A stretch of DNA of 26,557 bases, taken from contig JAIXMF010000177.1 in the NCBI GenBank assembly GCA_025201365.1, positions 1 through 26,557 of the forward strand, given 5' to 3'. Every line of letters starts with the position of its first letter. Position 1 is the stretch's first letter. The position numbers and the translations under genes are program-made. The notes under the pieces are model-generated. The model searched no databases and was not told the DNA's origin. It was given only the letters and a program-made list of their open reading frames with translations. This document shows positions 1 through 10,302 of this stretch, piece after piece. This stretch comes from Syncephalis plumigaleata. Its lineage: Eukaryota > Zoopagomycota > Zoopagomycetes > Zoopagales > Piptocephalidaceae.

Positions 1-297
1 TCAATATTGTTGACATTTGAACCAGTACTTGCACATTATTTATAAAGTAGAATGAAGCAATGATTATAATGCTCAGAATATGACATATTTATTCAATAAA
101 TGATTGAATAATCTTGTAGATATATTCCTTGTACCAAGAAATAATGACTTGAATGGCATGGACACTAAAGGGTCTTGCACCAATCCATTCTTGACTTGAA
201 TACCTATAATATCTACTTGATGATGTCCTTGTCTTGTTCTGTAATCATAACGGATTAGTATGGTATGATTATTTGTTGGATTATTACTTACCATTCC
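1..297 (-). other. 3' UTR of the single-codon-exon gene, with a terminal intron
   Basis: On the minus strand the last coding exon ends at a GTAAGT donor (291-286). A 53-nt intron follows, with a CTAAT branch-like site, ending in TTACAG at 239-240. The downstream exon carries AATAAA at 93-88, a plausible polyadenylation signal. A 73-codon ORF over 294-73 runs through the intron and is probably fortuitous. If the irregular junction at 1227-1234 is read as an 8-nt exon, the stop codon itself is split by this intron. Confidence 0.5.
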
Positions 298-3200
298 TCA
301 AGATGCCTTAACAATTAACGTGTATTCCATTACAATTAATGCGGCATTTGTTATCGTCGTACTGCCCACTTACAAGCTATCATACAATCATACGCATATC
401 GTATTTTACATTGATTGTAATCAGTGTATAGTCTATGGCAATCGGAAAGATAGCTTACAATCTGATGTATGTCAGCATACATGGAGAACATGCCACATTA
501 CAATGAGTAATGCGTATACGTTGATTGACATGCCCACTTACTTCCTATTATTATTATTATTTACAATCCACATGGATCGAGTAGCACATTATGATTGAGT
601 GATCATATACTGTCATTGAAAATACCAGCTTACTTGCTATTCGATATGATTGTACCGGATTGCATATCGCACATCGATTAGTCGTCCATCATCATGTATC
701 GTGACTATGCCTTCTTTTGACTTACATCCTGTGTTATGCCATTGTGAATGAGCCATGTTACATGTTGCAATCAATGAATCATCCATCGTAGTCGAGTTGA
801 TAGCTTACTTTCTATTGCCCATTATCGTATATTAGTCAAGTGGTATTGCATTTAGCATAGCATAGCTTGTCATCAATCCATTGACTTGCCTCCTATTGTA
901 TGTGATTATGCATGGATTGCATGTCGTATTGTCATTAGCACACGACATATCACGATCGAGTCACTGGCTTGCCTTCTGTTAATACGGTAATACGTGAATT
1001 GTATGCCACATATCGTCATTAACATGCCACCTATTGCAAGTAAAAGTGCTCGCTTACATGCTATTATACGTGAGTATACACGATCCATATGGCGTACATT
1101 GCAATTAGCACGTCATAGATTGTCATTAGAAATGCCAACTTGCCTCCTGTCATTCACAATCATATGGGAATTGAATGTTGCAATACAATTAGCGTATTGC
1201 AAATTGCCATTGACATGTCCACTTGCCCTTTATTCTACGTAATCAAATGTGATTCGTATGTTGTCTTGTGATTAGTGCACCATAGAATGCAATAGCACTA
1301 TCGACTTACATCCTATCGTATAGAAGTGTACAGGAATTGTGTTTGCATTATAATAAGCACATCGTCTATTCTGATCGGAATACTAGTTTACCTTCTGTTC
1401 AATAGTTATACACCAATCATATGGTATGATAATGTTGTTGTTAGCACGATATACAAGGCAATAATACATCAACTTACTTGCTATCATACGCAATCACATA
1501 GACATGGATCGTATCCCATATTGCAATTAGTGGGGAATACGTGCAACTAGAATGCTAGCCTACCTTCTTCTATCATACATGACCATGCATGGATCGTATA
1601 CCATACACTGCCATTAGCATGTCGTATATCGGGATAAGAATGCCTGCTTACCGCCTATCACGCATAATCATAGGTGAGTTGTATGTCATATAACAATCAA
1701 AATGCCCACTTACAAACTATAGAATGTGGCCATACATGAAACGTATACCATCATACTGTCATTAATCTACCATACGATAACATTCGAATGCTCACTTACT
1801 GCCTATGACACGTAAGCATACACGAATGAGATATCATACTGCTATTAGCGACTATACTATTCCAATAAATAGGTTGACTTTCTTACCATCTATTATCCAT
1901 GATCATTTGTGGGTGTACACCACGTCATTACAATTATTAGTCCATCGTCAAATTGTCATTAGACTGCTAGCTTACGGTCTATTATCCACACACATGCACA
2001 TATGAATGGTATGCCAAATCACTATCAGCTACCAATATCGTATTACAACATGAATGCTGACTTACTCCCTGATGTGCATAATCATACGTGGATTGTATGT
2101 CCCATTCCAGTTAATGTCTCATATGTCGTAACAAGAATAATAAACTTACAAACTACCACATACAACCATACGTGAATCATGTGTCATAATACAATCAGTA
2201 CACCGCATGCTGTGATTACAATTCCCACTTACAAGCTGTCATATGTAATCACACACGAGTTGTTTACCACATTGCAATTAGATCGACGTATTAATGTTAA
2301 AAATGCTAGCTTACATCCTAGTATCCATGATCATACGGGAGTTGTATGTCACACTATGATTAATGCTTCATGTCTACTAGCTGACACTTCCAGCTTACAA
2401 GCTATCATGTGGCCATACATCAATCATTTGTGATATTTCGATTAGTATACCGTAGATTGTAATGGTGACATCAACTTACATGTTGATTCGCTTCCTCCAA
2501 CTAGGGCACGCAATAGTGGATTAGCTTCACATGATGCTTGACCAAATCAAACAATAAACTTACTTCTTCCTGTGCATAATCATACCAGGATTGTAAATTC
2601 CATTGTAATAAGTGCATGATGCATCATTATTTGGTATCTGCTTACTTGCTATGATAATACAAGCACATATCACATTCCGATTAGCATACCGTAGACTGTA
2701 ACAAGAATGATGACTTACACGCTGCTTCTCAGCCTCCAACTATGACATACAACAATAGATTAGTCTTACAAGATGTTTGACCAAATCAAACAATAAACTT
2801 ACTTCCATCTGTGCATGATTACACGTAGATTGTATGTCCCATTGTAATGAGTGTATGATGCATCATCATTTGGATATCTGCTTACTGGCTATGATAATGA
2901 TACAAGTACATATCACACATTGATTAGTATACCGCAGATTGTAATCATGATATCAACTTACATGTTGATTCCAAGTCTCCAACTAGGACATACAGCAGTG
3001 GATTAGCTTCACATGATGCTTGACCAAATCAAACAATAAAACTTACTTTTATCTGTGCATGATTACACGTGGATTGAATGTTCCATTGGAATGAGTGCGT
3101 GATGCATTATCATTTGGATATCAACCTACCGTCTATAACAATAGCAATAATACAAGCACATATCCCATTGCAATCAATATAGCGTAGATTGTAATCGTGA

Positions 3201-6200
3201 TATCAACTTACATATTGATACTCAACCCGGATCTAGGACACGCAATAGTGGATTAGCTTCATAAGATGTTTGACCAAATCAGACGATAATACTTACTTCT
3301 TTCTGTGCAGGATTCTACGTAGATTGTATGTCCCATTGGAGTGAGTGTATGATGCATCATTATTTGGTATCTGCTTACTTGCTATGATAATACAAGCACA
3401 TATCACATTCCGATTAGTATACCGCAGATTGTAATCAAAGTGATGACTTACTTCCTTTCATACACAATCAAAGGTCAATAGTGTATCACAATACGGTTAA
3501 TATGCTATGTAAATTGGCTGGAATACTGCCTTACCCCCTAATAGTTGTAGTTTTATGTGAATCATTCAATGGCATTACCATTAGCATGTCACATCTTGTA
3601 ACCAGCATGTCAGCTTACAAACTATCAAATGTAGTCATATGTGAATCATAAGACATCTTGCAATTAGTTCATCCAACACTATCATCGAATAATAACTTAC
3701 TAACTACAGTGGGGGAAAAAATTGTTCACGTGTTATATACTTTTTTACTTTCCCAATCACTACACAATTAATAAACAACATATCACTTTGTACTTTTACA
3801 TGTTAATAAAGCTATTAATTCTCTTTCTAATGATATAAAATATGTGCATACTTTATTATAGATTTCTTGAGATATTAGTGTTGAAAGTCACGTGGTGCAC
3901 GTGAACAATTTTTTCCATTACTAATAAAATTAACATTTCTTACCAATAATCAATTTTTATTCAATTTAAATGTAATAAAATGTTTATATATGAGTAAATA
4001 CGAGCTGTCGTGCATCGTACGAGCAATAAATAATTATAAATCAAGTTGATGTGGTTGAGCAATATGGCTATAATTGCTCATTTTAATGTATAGTAAAAAT
4101 GTTACTACAGTATGCTTTATTCACTTCCAAATGTTGTGCAAATGCTTATTAAAGCGCTTTTAAGCAATGGTAGCCTCCCTAGAACCACTGCGGGCAAGTT
4201 AGCTATGGTTAAAGATATGATTACATTGAACAATCACGCATGCAGCTGCTGGAATAGCGTTCATGTTACTACAATTTCGCTTATTACTCAGTGTACATTC
4301 GACCGATCCTACTTAAATTGCAGGTTATGATAAAGCACGTCTTCACGCAGATAATGATATAAAATAATGCTATGTCGATGGGAAAAGCGTCTAGTTATCA
4401 TCCTACAAAGATGATGTCACATTAATGTCACTGAATAGCGTAAATTTTAATTTTAATTTTTTGTAATAAATTTATTAATTAATGCCAAAAATAATAGTAA
4501 AAAATAGCGCAGAGCACGTTAATAAAGCATAATAAACAATAACAATAGCAGTTAATAAAGTGTTAAAGAATTTATTAAAAGATCTAATAAGAATTAATTT
4601 ACGCTATTCAGTGACATTAATGTGACATCATCTTTGTAGGATGATAACTAGACGCTTTTCCCATCGACATAGCATTATTTTATATCATTATCTGCGTGAA
4701 GACGTGCTTTATCATAACCTGCAATTTAAGTAGGATCGGTCGAATGTACACTGAGTAATAAGCGAAATTGTAGTAACATGAACGCTATTCCAGCAGCTGC
4801 ATGCGTGATTGTTCAATGTAATCATATCTTTAACCATAGCTAACTTGCCCGCAGTGGTTCTAGGGAGGCTACCATTGCTTAAAAGCGCTTTAATAAGCAT
4901 TTGCACAACATTTGGAAGTGAATAAAGCATACTGTAGTAACATTTTTACTATACATTAAAATGAGCAATTATAGCCATATTGCTCAACCACATCAACTTG
5001 ATTTATAATTATTTATTGCTCGTACGATGCACGACAGCTCGTATTTACTCATATATAAACATTTTATTACATTTAAATTGAATAAAAATTGATTATTGGT
5101 AAGAAATGTTAATTTTATTAGTAATGGAAAAAATTGTTCACGTGCACCACGTGACTTTCAACACTAATATCTCAAGAAATCTATAATAAAGTATGCACAT
5201 ATTTTATATCATTAGAAAGAGAATTAATAGCTTTATTAACATGTAAAAGTACAAAGTGATATGTTGTTTATTAATTGTGTAGTGATTGGGAAAGTAAAAA
5301 AGTATATAACACGTGAACAATTTTTTCCCCCACTGTATCATTCGTAATCATATATGGATCGTATTCATTACGATTAACACATCGTATCCTGTAGTGATAA
5401 TGCTAGCTTACTCTCTGTTATATGTGATCACAAGTCAATGGTATGCCGATTTATAATTAGTTCATTGCTTGTTGTAATCACTGTTTTGACTCACGAACTG
5501 ATGTGCATAAGCGTAAGTGAATTGCACACCGATTATGATTAGTTAATCGTATACGGTAATCACTATTTTGGCTTACTCTCTGTTATATGTAATGATAAAT
5601 GGATTGCACATCGATTATAATTAGCTCACGGTATACTGTAACCACTATTTCGACCTACCATCTGTTATAGGTGATTATAGATGAATTGTACACCGATTAC
5701 GATTAGTTCATCGTATAATACAGCCATTATTTTGGCTTACTTCCTGTTACATACGATCATGGATGAATTGCACATCAATTTACGATTAGTTCATTGTACG
5801 ATGTAACTGATATGTAAACATACTTCCTGTTATATGTGATCATAGGCGATTTGCATACCCGCTTACAATTAGTTCATTGTGTGCTATAATCACTGTTCTG
5901 ACCTACCGCCTGATGTGCATAAGTGTAAGTAAATTGTATACCGATTACAATTAGTTGATTGTACGCTGTAATCATTATGCATTCTTACTTCCCGCTATAT
6001 GTAAGCATACGTGAATGGTGTATCAATTTAGAATCATTTGATTGTGTGTTATAATCGTTATTTTGGCTTACTTTCTGACATTCATAAGTACAAGTAATCG
6101 CACATTACTTTGCTATTAATTTATGGTATGCTATAATCACTATTTTGGCTTACCCTCTGGCATGCATAGGCACAAATAGTAGCATATCGATTTATAATTA

Positions 6201-7886
6201 GCTGATTGTATGCCATAATAACAATGCTGACTTACTGCCTGTTACATGTCACCATAAGTGAACAGTGTGCCGATTTACAATTAGTTGATTGTGCGCTGTA
6301 GTCGCTATGCTAACCTACTTTCTGTTATATGTAATCATAGGCGAGTTCCACACCAATTACGATCAGCTCATCGTATGAAGCGATCGTTATATGACTTACT
6401 CTCTGTTATATGTGATCATAAGTCAATGGTATCGTAATTTACGATTAGTTCATCGTATGCTATAATCACTACTCTTGCTTACTATCTAACGTGCATAAGC
6501 GTAAGTGAATTGCACACCGATTACGATTAGTTCATCATATAGTGGGATTGTTATATGACTTACTCTCTGTTATATGTAATGATAAGTCGATGGTATGCAG
6601 ATTTACAATTAGTTCGTCGTATGTTGTAGTTACTATTATGACTTACGAGCTGATGTGCATAAGCGTAAATGAAGTGCACCCAATTTACAATTAGTTGCTT
6701 GTAAGCTATAATCACCATGCATCCTTACTTCCTGTTATATGTAAGCATACGTGAATGGTGTGTCAATTTAGAATTAGTTGATTGTATATTGCAAATAGTA
6801 CGCTAACTTACCGACTGGCATTTATCATTATAGATTTGTTATTCCACATTAGATTAGTTCATTGTGTGCTAAAGCCTATACGTTGGCTTACAGACTATGA
6901 TTTATAAATGCATATAAATCGTATATTCCACTCCAATTAGCACACATTCTACGGCAATTATAATGTTGGCTTACTATCTGTTGTACGTGATAGTACGTGG
7001 ATTGATTGTATTCCTCATTCCAATTAATGTCTTATATGCTTCAATCGAAATGATAACTTACGGCCTATTGTATTCCATAGTCATAGGTGAGCTACATTTT
7101 GGGATTGTAGTCCACGTGTTAACTTACACTCTATGTCGTGTGATCATCATACACACACACACGTATATGAATTGTACGTCGCATTATGATTATTGTGATT
7201 ATTATTGGAACGCTAGCTTACTGGCTTCTGCATGTGTCGTTACAAGTCAATCATGTATCATGCTACAATTAGCATACTGTATCCTATAGTCATCATAATG
7301 ACTTACCCTCTATTATTCACAATAATAAACAAGTACTATGATTAGTATGCCGTATATTGACACTGGAATGCCAACCTACAATCTATGCCGTGTAATCATC
7401 CATCATGAACCATGTTCCTCATTTCGATTAACACATTGCATATCACGATAAGAATGTCTAGTTACCCTCTGTTACATGGATGCATATGTGAATCATCAAT
7501 CAGCTTGTAATTAATCGATCGCACATTGCGCTGATCATCACTTACATACTATTACTCGTAATCATATGTGAATCGTACGCCATAGGGTAATGAGTACATC
7601 GACTAGTAAGACTGGAATGCTAACTTCTTACAATCTATTATATATATATGTGTGTGATGCATTGCTATTAACATGCCATGCATTAGTATGGAAATGTCCA
7701 CTTACATACTAGTGCAATCATATGCGAAGAGAATGATGATTGTTGTTGTTGTTATTAGTACATTATACGGTAATGCTAGACTAGCAACTTACATCCTGTT
7801 ACAGGTCATCGTACACGTATCATGACATGTCAACTTATAATGAGCACATCGTATGCTATGATCGAAATGATCACCTACATGCTGTC

Positions 7887-7919
<33 letters not shown>

Positions 7920-8596
7920 GAATGACAAGTGAAGCAATTGTGCCATTGCAATTAGTATGACGTATACTGCAATCGGAATACCGCCCACTTACAATCTATT
8001 ACGCGTCATCATCGGTGAATCGAATGCCACATTCCAACGAGTGCTCGCTTACCCACTAATACATGCAATCATACGTGAGTCAAATGGCTCATTGCAATGA
8101 TACTAGTAGCTTACGTGTTCCTATGCATGATAATCATACGGGAATCGATTGCCACATTTCAATGAGCGTATGGCATAGTATCATCGTGATTCACAACTCA
8201 CCTCCTATCATACGAGTATTGCAATTAGTACATTGTATGTTTATTTAGACAGAATATCAACTTACTTCTGCTTCTATAATAGTAACATATGATTTTGATT
8301 TACATTCCAGTCAACACGACATACGCCATGCTCACTCGTTGTTTAACTCACCAACTATGATTGACAGCATCGTATGTGGCATCATCATCAGTATCGCAAT
8401 CATTGTCATACGATATAGACTTACCATCTATTGATTGTCATTAGAAAGACCATTAGATAGTAGTATTACGATTAGCGTGTTTATTAGTATCGATGATGAT
8501 GATGGTAGAAATACCAGTGGAATTTGATGATACGGATGCTGTAGCACTGACTATAGGCTGGCTATTGTTATTATTGTTATCAGCAGATAATTCCAT
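298..8596 (-). CDS. Single-codon-exon gene: about 140-residue helical protein split by about 80 introns
   Basis: I do not recognise the protein. The start ATG is at 8596-8594 and the first coding exon is 8596-8515 (27 codons plus 1 nt; Asn/Ser-rich). It is followed by about 80 tiny exons, each written NAG|exon|GTAAG on the minus strand. The 3-nt exons begin (low + coordinate) at 8425, 8352, 8202, 8053, 7993, 7879, 7793, 7706, 7632, 7546, 7466, 7380, 7307, 7128, 7062, 6975, 6892, 6812, 6729, 6647, 6564, 6483, 6400, 6319, 6236, 6154, 6072, 5907, 5824, 5741, 5659, 5577, 5495, 5412, 3701, 3619, 3535, 3452, 3379, 3130, 2886, 2646, 2399, 2315, 2233, 2150, 2066, 1976, 1887, 1800, 1714, 1652, 1478, 1392, 1310, 1144, 1058, 973, 890, 809, 726, 634, 542, 459 and 374. 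The 6-nt exons begin at 8115, 7222, 5989, 3297, 3047, 2803, 2574 and 1564. The 21-nt exons begin at 3212, 2962, 2719 and 2480. There is an 8-nt exon at 8266-8273. The junction at 1227-1234 is irregular. The last coding exon is 292-306. The joined frame has no internal stop and is rich in E, K, R, A, L and Q; one stretch reads ELRIRKARKREAEEMRF, which looks like a coiled-coil helix. Donors are GTAAG (most), GTAGG (7), GCAAG (4), GTGAG (3), GTATG, GTAAA and GTAAC. The stop is TGA at 300-298, or a TGA split by the last intron if the 1227-1234 junction is an 8-nt exon. Function is unknown and expression is untested. Confidence 0.72.
307..3704 (-). repeat. Array of related introns, downstream half (about 83-bp period)
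   Basis: About 41 units of degenerate tandem repeat. On the minus strand each reads GTAAGT, about 35 nt, a CTAAT-type branch site, about 40 nt, then a YAG acceptor, followed by a 3-21 nt exon and the next donor. Donor-to-donor spacing is mostly 81-90 bp, with a few of 62-76. Units diverge strongly from each other except at the splice signals. Between 2574 and 3440 the introns are much more alike, reflecting a recent higher-order duplication. Confidence 0.85.
2480..3302 (-). repeat. Higher-order repeat: three-exon module of about 245 bp, four copies
   Basis: Four 21-nt exons at 2480-2500, 2719-2739, 2962-2982 and 3212-3232 lie 239-250 bp apart. Each is preceded in transcription order by a 6-nt exon and a 3-nt exon, so one module contributes 30 coding nt, a ten-residue repeat. 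The 21-nt exons translate as LEEANQH, LEAEKQR, LETWNQH and IRVEYQY. Introns at equivalent positions are near copies (for example 2634-2690 and 3365-3421), so the module was amplified with its introns. Confidence 0.8.
3707..4446 (+). repeat. Left arm of the palindromic element
   Basis: This 740-bp terminal inverted repeat pairs with 4596-5335. Within it, the outer motif GGAAAAAATTGTTCACGTG (about 3713-3731) recurs in inverted orientation at 3898-3916. Each arm therefore has its own terminal/subterminal inverted pair about 200 bp across, a layout reminiscent of the double transposase-binding sites of IR/DR-type Tc1 elements. Confidence 0.9.
4112..4330 (+). CDS. 72-codon ORF in left arm, possible transposase N-terminal remnant
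   Basis: The ORF has a possible helix-turn-helix-like stretch near residues 11-35 (IKALLSNGSLPRTTAGKLA), loosely like the N-terminal DNA-binding region of Tc1/mariner transposases. No catalytic DDE/D part is visible. It could be the first exon of a truncated transposase captured in the inverted duplication, or chance. Confidence in function is low; the ORF itself is certain. Confidence 0.3.
   Translation: MLYSLPNVVQMLIKALLSNGSLPRTTAGKLAMVKDMITLNNHACSCWNSVHVTTISLITQCTFDRSYLNCRL
4596..5335 (-). repeat. Right arm of the palindromic element
   Basis: Inverted copy of 3707-4446. Symmetry breaks at 4446/4596. I checked it by reading the outer 430 nt and the innermost 130 nt of both arms, plus the identical 72-codon ORF translations. 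Confidence 0.9.
4712..4930 (-). CDS. 72-codon ORF in right arm, identical to the left-arm copy
   Basis: The translation is identical to the ORF at 4112-4330, as expected from the perfect palindrome. It shows that the duplicated segment includes this ORF in divergent-to-convergent orientation (both ORFs point towards the spacer). The doubt about a transposase origin is the same. Confidence 0.3.
   Translation of the reverse strand: MLYSLPNVVQMLIKALLSNGSLPRTTAGKLAMVKDMITLNNHACSCWNSVHVTTISLITQCTFDRSYLNCRL
5338..8514 (-). repeat. Array of related introns, upstream half (about 83-bp period)
   Basis: About 39 units of the same family on the far side of the palindromic element. Spacing between 5411 and 6974 is very even (80-83 bp) and the units there are the most alike, with shared segments near CATACGATGAACTAAT and ATGATTACATATAACAG on the minus strand. 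Spacing becomes irregular (60-114 bp) towards 8500, where one unit has expanded through an AT/GT microsatellite. The first intron (8514-8428) has a GTATTT donor and a normal CAATAG acceptor. Confidence 0.85.
7887..7919. repeat. (AT)n(GT)n microsatellite in an intron
   Basis: An alternating AT tract followed by GT lies near the 3' end (minus strand) of the intron between the exons at 7993 and 7879. It explains why that unit is about 114 bp instead of about 83. Confidence 0.9.
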
Positions 8597-9357
8597 GTTG
8601 ATATTGTCCTAATGGAAGAGCAAGAGAAACAAACAAACAAACAAACAAACAAACAAGCGAAATGGAGTAATGAGTATAGAATAGAATAAAAAGAGAGATA
8701 TGGTCAAATAGTATGGTAGTTCTAGGAAAGTAGCACAGGCACTTTTGACTAATTTAAACGACACCGCATTGACACCTCGCCACTTCTGCATTTCTTTACC
8801 GTATTTCTTTCTCGTGTTCTTTTTCGTGTTTCTGTACGTTTTCTATGCATAAGCATATTCAGTTTGCGTTGTATTCCTTTGTGCCTTCTACGCGTTTGTA
8901 CTCTCACTAGCTTACGACAGTAATTACTCATAGTATATATTCTACTCTACTCTGCATAGTTATTCATACTATTGTGTACACTTTTACTGCTTGTAAACTA
9001 CGATTACTGCAGAGAACCACTTTCTTCCGTAGCACTTGATCTTGCCACGATCTACTCTTGTCTAACTAGTTTAGTCGTTATTTCTTTCTGTACAACAAAG
9101 CCGTACACCCTGCTGTGCTCATTGCCGTTGTATTTATCGTATTTCTCTCCTACAACTACACGCTATTTTTATTCGTTTATCTCGTCATAGTCATAGTACG
9201 TGCTTTTATCTTTCATCGTGCTAATAACCGTTATAGCAAGTATACTAACGACTATATGCTATGTTGTAGGCATAGTCACACTTCTCGTAATCATGGCCTG
9301 TGTTTATACTGTGCACCCTTCTATATTCGTAGGTCATAGCACTCATAACCCGCAAGC
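8597..9357. promoter_or_regulatory. Divergent intergenic region, with an AAAC tract
   Basis: This separates the minus-strand single-codon-exon gene from the plus-strand ORF at 9358. A run of AAAC repeats (8626-8656) reads on the minus strand as a pyrimidine/GT-rich tract ending CTTCCATTAG just before the start codon, so a 5' UTR intron acceptor at 8611 is possible. Short ORFs on both strands here have no recognisable content. On the plus strand an 83-codon hydrophobic ORF (9200-9451) overlaps the next gene in another frame. I see no RNA gene. Confidence 0.4.
8626..8656. repeat. (AAAC)n microsatellite
   Basis: About seven AAAC units just upstream (on the minus strand) of the start codon of the single-codon-exon gene. 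In the transcript this is a GTTT tract before a possible CTTCCATTAG acceptor. Confidence 0.95.
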
Positions 9358-10302
9358 GTGCCACTCCGCACAATTGCATCGCCAGTTCAAACGAATTCAG
9401 TTGCAGCCGCTACATTCTCCCGACAAACTTGCTGCGTGGAATACTTACTAGACGGTATTGTTAGCGTAATGAGCAAGCGACTACACCAACGGCTCTTCAG
9501 TGCAATTGTATCGCTTTTCTATTGCATTAGCGGCAGTTATCAGCAAGCAGCCCTACAAGACTGTTGCGCCGAACATTTCCTATCAGCCATTCTTGATCCG
9601 GTGAATAAGGTGCTTTATGCGGGTGCACCATTTAAAAGCAATGAAACGAAGACGCTGATGTCACGTTTTCACGATACCACGGCTATGCCTCGTAACCGAG
9701 TAGCGAGACCACCGCATATTGCTCCTCCACCAATCCAGCGCACTCTTTACGTGATAGAGGAATCGCCACTCGAATTAGACAGCATCCAACACTCGCTCAA
9801 CTCGGTAGAGGCATTGTCACTCGAATCAGATAACGACCAGCACGCATCCATGCTGCCAAGTACACCGGAAGAAGAGCTCATCTTTGTAATCGAGGACTAC
9901 ACGGATAAGGTGGCATCCAATCCGCGTAAACGACCATTAGAGGATGAAGCTGATCTCGCTACGAGCTGCATGCCACGAACAAAGAAGGGTCGATTGCAAA
10001 TCCCGGTCAATACGTGCCAATGGCCACGAACACGTAAACGCACAACCATACGACATCGTACGCAGCCCTCATTCAAGCTGCCCGGCCTAGTACTCGTCTG
10101 CCCACCAATGGATGTAGACGATGACTATATGCTTAATACATCAACTACGCCAAATGATGCGCATCTTCCGATAATGTCATTCTCTCTGGCTCAAGAACTA
10201 CCGTGGATGGCCACAGCCAAACAGGATTGGACCAAGCAGCACACGTTGTTGATGCCTTCATTTGATTTAATGGAAGATGCTATGATCATTGATACCTACT
10301 AA
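9358..10302 (+). CDS. Hypothetical protein, probably nuclear and disordered
   Basis: This is an uninterrupted 314-codon ORF, unusual for a window where most genes have many introns. I do not recognise it. Residues 1-105 are mixed and Cys-containing; from about 110 it is Pro/Ser/Glu-rich with two basic clusters, RKRPLEDEAD and RTKKGR followed by RTRKRTTIR (about 195-240), resembling bipartite nuclear localisation signals. The C-terminal 60 residues are acidic and hydrophobic (DVDDDY, FDLMEDAMIID), like an activation or interaction segment. The start is uncertain: an internal Met at 9469 is equally plausible, and an upstream exon starting near 9293 could be spliced on. It is divergent from the single-codon-exon gene. 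Confidence 0.5.
   Translation: MPLRTIASPVQTNSVAAATFSRQTCCVEYLLDGIVSVMSKRLHQRLFSAIVSLFYCISGSYQQAALQDCCAEHFLSAILDPVNKVLYAGAPFKSNETKTLMSRFHDTTAMPRNRVARPPHIAPPPIQRTLYVIEESPLELDSIQHSLNSVEALSLESDNDQHASMLPSTPEEELIFVIEDYTDKVASNPRKRPLEDEADLATSCMPRTKKGRLQIPVNTCQWPRTRKRTTIRHRTQPSFKLPGLVLVCPPMDVDDDYMLNTSTTPNDAHLPIMSFSLAQELPWMATAKQDWTKQHTLLMPSFDLMEDAMIIDTY

Follow-up and report, generated by a model that had tools for sequence, protein, structure and literature searches.

A minus-strand array of splice sites in a 26,557-nt stretch of the fungus Syncephalis plumigaleata (GenBank assembly GCA_025201365.1, contig JAIXMF010000177.1, positions 1 to 26,557; hereafter the window) is, with high probability, a protein-coding gene cut by about 80 short, self-sufficient introns into exons that are mostly a single codon. 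The curated model of this gene starts with an ATG at 8596, ends with a TAG at 213 and comprises 82 exons and 81 introns, with splice sites about 83 bases apart; the joined exons give a single open frame of 150 residues. Between a first exon of 82 nt and a last one of 26 nt stand 80 internal exons of 3-21 nt, of which 66 measure 3 nt, seven 6 nt, four 21 nt, two 8 nt and one 5 nt. An earlier note on the window had counted 65, 8, 4 and one or two exons of 3, 6, 21 and 8 nt, each within one or two of the curated figures (66, 7, 4 and 2), and had ended the gene at 298, which the curated model extends to 213; the start and the 82-nt first exon that it proposed stand, while its frame of about 140 residues has an ambiguous end, at 139 or 150. 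The introns have a median of 79 nt and 80 of the 81 measure 53-111 nt; the spacing of about 83 bp thus described earlier holds in general and fails in one intron (5411-3704), which reaches 1,708 nt because a foldback element of 1,633 bp sits inside it. Donors are GTAAG in 63 of 81 cases and related forms in the remainder, acceptors are TAG or CAG in 78 of 81, and a CTAAT-like branch motif lies most commonly 43 nt upstream of the acceptor.

The presence of tiny exons on the minus strand is confirmed by motif counts, by shuffles and by a parser using splice sites only. Positions 1-8700 contain the motif YAG-N3-GTA[AGT]G 57 times on the minus strand; it is found nowhere else on that strand and three times on the entire plus strand, and the version with a 6-nt exon gives 10, 0 and 6, respectively. 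For the stricter motif YAGNNNGTAAGY, the window contains 47 matches against 0.81 expected from 100 dinucleotide shuffles (largest count 3); 46 of these are on the minus strand within the array, and one of the 46 (2713) ends a 21-nt exon. When the array was given to the parser, which is blind to codons, 71 or 81 introns were returned depending on the penalty, with 55 or 60 exons of 3 nt, and for the reversed array and the two strands of the remaining window the shortest exons were 25, 14 and 7 nt; outside the array, the parser found no comparable run of tiny exons in the window.

The architecture extends well beyond the window, and the gene proposed earlier, itself supported, proves to be one member of a genome-wide family. 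Across the 32.6-Mb genome, the pattern of two consecutive 3-nt exons has 2,315 matches and its reversed form 4; a 6-nt exon followed by a 3-nt exon gives 78 (reversed 2), and a 4-nt exon followed by a 3-nt exon gives 0 (reversed 4). Array places less than 4 kb apart form 119 clusters on 61 contigs, a figure compiled by hand from partial place lists with close neighbours dropped, in which allelic contigs are counted apart and some long genes, including that of the window, are split in two, and which is neither a lower nor an upper bound on the number of genes. The genome therefore holds on the order of a hundred one-codon arrays, allelic copies included, and the array genes number about 100 or somewhat fewer, since the clusters count allelic contigs separately and divide a few long genes in two. 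The first exon of the window gene has 28 genome matches, a few of them partial (all 29 candidates were scored), 27 of which are within 4.5 kb of an array place.

The lengths and the content of the small exons both point to coding. Fourteen loci were parsed from their splice sites only; among the 811 exons of 30 nt or less in them, 781 are multiples of three, and 705 are exactly 3 nt. The absence of stops among the single codons of the window, reported earlier, extends to all of these loci: read in phase 0, none of 653 one-codon exons is a stop, where base composition predicts 19.4 in 451 codons for the family of the window gene and 8.0 in 202 for a sister family described below; the 653 codons are not independent, because the 14 loci include paralogues. 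In the other two phases, counted by joining consecutive 3-nt exons and ignoring the longer exons between them, stops amount to 19/639 and 65/639. Over the whole genome, TAA or TGA (TRA) stands as the first codon of a pair in 4 cases, with 3 in the reversed control and about 76 expected from the classes TRY, VRA and VRY, which number 106, 425 and 589 (Fisher p 7e-19 for the TRA deficit). Further evidence comes from L037 and L051 (contigs C318 and C346), probable alleles that are 91.5% identical and in which 71 small exons are matched and three more unmatched. Of the 71, 17 differ, nine by synonymous changes and eight by amino-acid changes, six of which are grouped in a single stretch; among 11 single-base differences, eight are synonymous (19% expected when every single-base change is weighted equally, p 1e-4) and nine are at the third codon position. 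The likeness of these contigs suggests that the assembly contains both alleles of a diverged diploid.

The sister family shares with the window gene a similar 5' flank and the last exon, and its arrays apparently encode, in several cases and as judged from the parsed exons, secreted proteins containing cysteines. Its first exon, of 94 nt, reads MKFSAVIAIVVAVVALTSLVAVEASPALVRR, which by eye is a signal peptide with a dibasic site after it, and has at least 146 matches in the genome, a lower bound because 150 of 168 candidates were scored; an array place lies within 4.5 kb of 77 of them, a zone that covers 3.7% of the genome. In this family the 94-nt exon ends in phase 1, exons of 3, 6, 9 and 5 nt lead to phase 0, and a run of one-codon exons follows, closed by a terminal exon with an in-frame TAA. 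Of the six sister genes parsed (L037a, L037b, L038, L039, L044 and L046), four have cysteines in the order C, CC, C (one at the start, the CC pair and one more downstream). The products of these four were read in part for two genes and, after the exon lists had been refined by hand, as far as the stop for the other two: one has 66 aa up to the in-frame TAA, from 30 one-codon exons and 33 introns, and the other 83 aa, from 43 one-codon exons and 47 introns, with no intron longer than 84 nt in either gene. Since Syncephalis species are mycoparasites (PMC6784888; PMC10386755), the sister-family proteins would be candidate effectors towards the fungal host. Taken together, dozens of genes appear from their sequence to be written in one-codon exons, many of them encoding small, fast-changing, secreted-looking proteins. 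Six other loci (L041, L042, L043, L045, L047 and L048) carry the same signal-peptide exon with no one-codon array in the parse, and the signal-peptide frame of L043 and L048 continues into a homologue of the common terminal exon; these array-less genes may be ancestors or collapsed forms. Twenty-two of the 119 clusters, among them those at C68:294-298 kb, C1:2256 kb, C1:2473 kb and C112:1950 kb, are near neither first exon, some being parts of split genes (such as the 3' part of the window gene) or lying at contig ends; several have visibly different introns and may represent further families.

Comparison of seven copies, the window gene and six paralogues, separates constant ends from a variable middle. 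In the 3' constant part (from CTT at 2401 to CTT at 374; 374..2401), exons differ at 70 of 1,908 bases and introns at 2,406 of 36,074, only 5 of 29 codon columns vary, with five to seven copies per column, and no variation was seen in the nine exons compared downstream of a doubtful 8-nt exon (AATAAAGG, 1227..1234). The 5' part, with small exons from ATG (8427) to ATA (6975), can be aligned in all seven copies (6975..8427). Between them, the middle (2480..6894) consists of one-codon and 6-nt exons and four 21-nt exons, and the number as well as the identity of its codons differ among copies. Against the closest copy, the middle exons of the window gene differ at 26 of 106 bases and the introns at 174 of 1,891 (p 7e-6), and 17 of 36 codons have changed amino acid and one has changed synonymously, although some of the changed codons come from 21-nt exons and are possibly not true counterparts. 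In the 17 middle units whose flanking introns are both at least 85% identical, the excess persists (exons 8/51, introns 71/1,348; p 0.006), and no 8-base bin of the introns reaches the exon divergence rate. Exons that are free of stops and change faster than their introns point to diversifying selection, to which the exchange of units among copies could contribute. Adjacent introns are more alike than distant ones in L044 and L046, only slightly so in the window gene and L032, and not in L037 and L039. Two copies of the window gene, L049 and L050, have a terminal exon with an in-frame TAA like that of the sister family and unlike that of the window copy.

Annotated proteins offer a separate view of the same architecture. 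The search of the predicted product against annotated proteins, suggested earlier, returned three matches, all from S. plumigaleata, of which P0060 (130 aa) matches the window product over its whole length with 46% identity. Exon mapping, which covered P0060 and P0061, showed that 44 exons of the paralogue L049, 29 being single codons, encode P0060 exactly; all 30 controls in which the tail had been shuffled failed to map. The annotated proteins were rejected as proof of transcription, given the one-codon exons missing from P0060 and the failure of P0061 to map beyond residue 82 of 105; the two models are instead taken as the verdict of an independent gene finder. A known protein family for the array products was likewise rejected, since for two spliced products the Pfam matches were far below the cut-off, namely ZapB (E 0.097), DUF7155 (E 0.17) and an MgtS-like family (E 0.84).

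A spliced gene of mostly one-codon exons, as proposed earlier, is thus the best reading of the whole-genome evidence, because exon lengths fit the frame, stops are absent, single-base changes between probable alleles are mostly synonymous, sister genes have cysteines and in-frame stops, and a relative has been annotated. Several observations weigh against it. The architecture is known here from genomic sequence alone; 30 of the 811 parsed exons of 30 nt or less are not multiples of three, 11 of them being 2 nt long; and the small exons of L037 and L051, taken overall, diverge as fast as the introns (24/233 versus 520/5,602). In the 5' part of the seven copies exons also vary like introns (86/1,082 versus 1,471/22,791), and the 3' constant part shows no synonymous change although its introns vary, for which pure protein constraint is insufficient. 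Two of the seven copies, L033 and L034 (C112 and C223), have 1-nt gaps in small exons, as they have in introns, possibly through assembly errors or decay. Among the sister genes, the parses of L044 and L046 contain no cysteine codons, that of L044 includes a frame-breaking 2-nt exon, and that of L046 has no visible terminal TAA. The annotated models resemble the output of gene-finding software: P0060 passes over a number of one-codon exons that its DNA contains, which makes several of its introns two to four units long, and P0061, on a similar exon path, can be mapped only through residue 82 of 105 and contains residues encoded by none of the parsed exons. In the window gene itself the end of the frame is ambiguous, depending on the doubtful 8-nt exon: using it puts the remainder in phase 2 and gives a product of 150 residues, ending ...NEQDKDIIK, and skipping it gives one of 139, ending ...KDQEILE. 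This exon has equal length in the seven copies, L036 fits better without it (by eye), and L036 reads the last exon differently.

The explanation that competes best, although unlikely, accepts the one-codon exons as real and supposes that each transcript includes a random or regulated subset of them, giving a cloud of protein variants; any subset would stay in frame because nearly every exon is a whole codon. It agrees with the preponderance of small exons that are multiples of three, most of them read in phase 0, and with the model of P0060, which keeps its frame while omitting several one-codon exons, as skipping would produce. Those omissions are equally explicable as a limit of annotation software, however, and the near invariance of the 3' constant exons is what would be expected if each were normally included. 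Far less probable is a non-coding tandem satellite, or an intron-derived repeat with splice-like motifs, removed as a single intron between the first and terminal exons. The units are indeed repeated and alike, with adjacent introns of L044 0.76 identical against 0.65 for distant ones, and some sister genes have the same signal-peptide exon and no array; but a satellite accounts for neither the lack of phase-0 stops, the occurrence of 3- and 6-nt but not 4-nt patterns, the synonymous excess, the cysteines of the sister family nor its in-frame stops; the grounds for rejecting it were the stops, the exon lengths, the synonymous changes and the cysteine codons. More improbable still is the view that the arrays are decayed or mis-assembled copies of genes that were once normal: a fresh-looking foldback insertion in the window copy and the 1-nt gaps of L033 and L034 would suit it, but the window copy and most of the six paralogues compared retain their frame, splice sites and 3' constant exons, and about a hundred clusters, counting allelic ones, show the signature. 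A host gene for intron-encoded non-coding RNAs, with tiny exons as by-products, has the least chance of all, for despite its many short introns of similar size in one transcript it predicts neither whole-codon exons, the absence of stops nor cysteine codons, and it was rejected as no Rfam family reached the gathering score in a scan of the entire window.

If the array is indeed a gene spliced codon by codon, its introns would very probably be recognized one at a time. A 3-nt exon cannot be defined as an exon. Each intron has its own strong donor of the GTAAG type, usually a CTAAT-like branch site, and a YAG acceptor, and such complete signals make intron-by-intron splicing through intron definition very likely from what is understood of splicing, since a 3-nt exon is too small for the complexes of both splice sites. 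Judged by sequence, the small exons are bounded by complete introns, their lengths and stops obey the reading frame, and the number of units varies by copy. The structural unit is an intron plus one codon, about 83 bp, and its gain, loss or exchange would add, remove or swap one amino acid with the frame unshifted; arrays may have grown by tandem duplication of such units, and the signal-peptide family may act at the interface with the host fungus. The broader proposal, to which roughly even chances are given, is that of a new gene architecture of tandem intron-plus-one-codon units at about 100 loci, with one residue per splicing event, evolving by single-codon modules carried on homologous introns and providing a frame-safe system of codon-level diversity for host-facing proteins, possibly multiplied by codon-by-codon alternative splicing. 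Were this true, the spliceosome would build coding sequence from one-codon exons in runs of dozens, with about 80 introns in one gene; the lower limit of exon size and the need for intron definition would become directly testable; a class of apparently host-facing proteins easily overlooked by standard annotation and RNA mapping would come into view; and there would be a simple route to altering the length and content of a gene one amino acid at a time without frameshifts.

Schistosome micro-exon genes form a parasite gene superfamily with many small exons of 3-81 bp, secreted products and introns up to 5 kb (PMC10526429). The window gene resembles them in its many short exons, 80 internal ones of 3-21 nt, and differs in that 80 of 81 introns are 53-111 nt and that most exons are single codons in runs of dozens; as to secreted products, the sister family has an exon resembling a signal peptide by eye, and the window gene has none. 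Aphid bicycle genes are putative effectors that evolve rapidly and contain many exons of unusually small size and uniform phase; they average about 17 exons, nearly all internal ones being in phase 2, and an aphid 'megacycle' gene has over 100 microexons (PMC9168663). Rapid coding divergence is common to both systems, here in the middle exons and not in the 3' constant ones; in contrast to the aphid genes, the run is in phase 0, with phase 2 at most at one end, most exons are one codon long, and the genes belong to a fungus. Isolated microexons of 1-3 nt in APC11 and VPS55 of plants (PMC8831610; PMC4674806) and a 3-bp exon of Drosophila homothorax (PMC7392893) indicate that the spliceosome can join exons of this size, although they are single exons in ordinary genes, unlike the runs described here. 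Among the titles and abstract openings listed from open-licence literature, no account of runs of one-codon exons was found, and it is relative to this literature that such runs are novel.

Introner elements are related introns that occur in large numbers in one genome, placed in many genes unrelated to each other. The arrays resemble them in the many related introns of one genome, as seen in the array genes, which were the genes examined, and differ in that similar introns stand head to tail, each with its own codon.

At the 5' end of the window gene, the first exon (8515..8596, minus strand, as are all exons of the array) runs from the ATG to the donor G|GTATTT in phase 1 and encodes MELSADNNNNN..., by eye without a signal peptide, although its start and 5' flank are similar to the signal-peptide exon of the sister family. 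Phase 0 is restored by an 8-nt exon at 8266..8273 (82+3+3+8 = 96 nt), which is parsed as 8 nt in five of the seven copies and otherwise in the remaining two. The 21-nt exons of the middle lie at 3212..3232 and 2962..2982 (seven codons each), 2719..2739 (LEAEKQR) and 2480..2500 (LEEANQH), the last being 21 nt at the same place in all seven copies; their seven residues equal the length of a coiled-coil heptad, and with the adjoining small exons they form a 250-bp repeat. The product is charged and heptad-rich, probably a coiled coil, with constant ends and a variable middle. A 5-nt exon, GAATG (292..296), precedes the last intron, and the last exon (213..238, 26 nt, ending in TAG) is a homologue of the terminal exon of the sister family, where it sits beyond the stop; it has at least 40 copies genome-wide, a lower bound because 40 of 193 candidates were scored.

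The foldback element, an inverted repeat of 1,633 bp at 3705..5337, consists of two 742-nt arms that are 100% complementary and a loop of 149 nt. By eye, its insertion duplicated TA in the acceptor of the TTA exon, and the acceptor remains TAG; the site is empty in the paralogue at C1:1414k, and the element is either a very recent insertion or an assembly effect. Upstream of the array gene, an open frame of 314 codons on the plus strand (9358-10302) has no Pfam match, and five of the seven open frames tested in the window match ordinary families, namely RRM (two), ribosomal protein S17, MatE and SUN.

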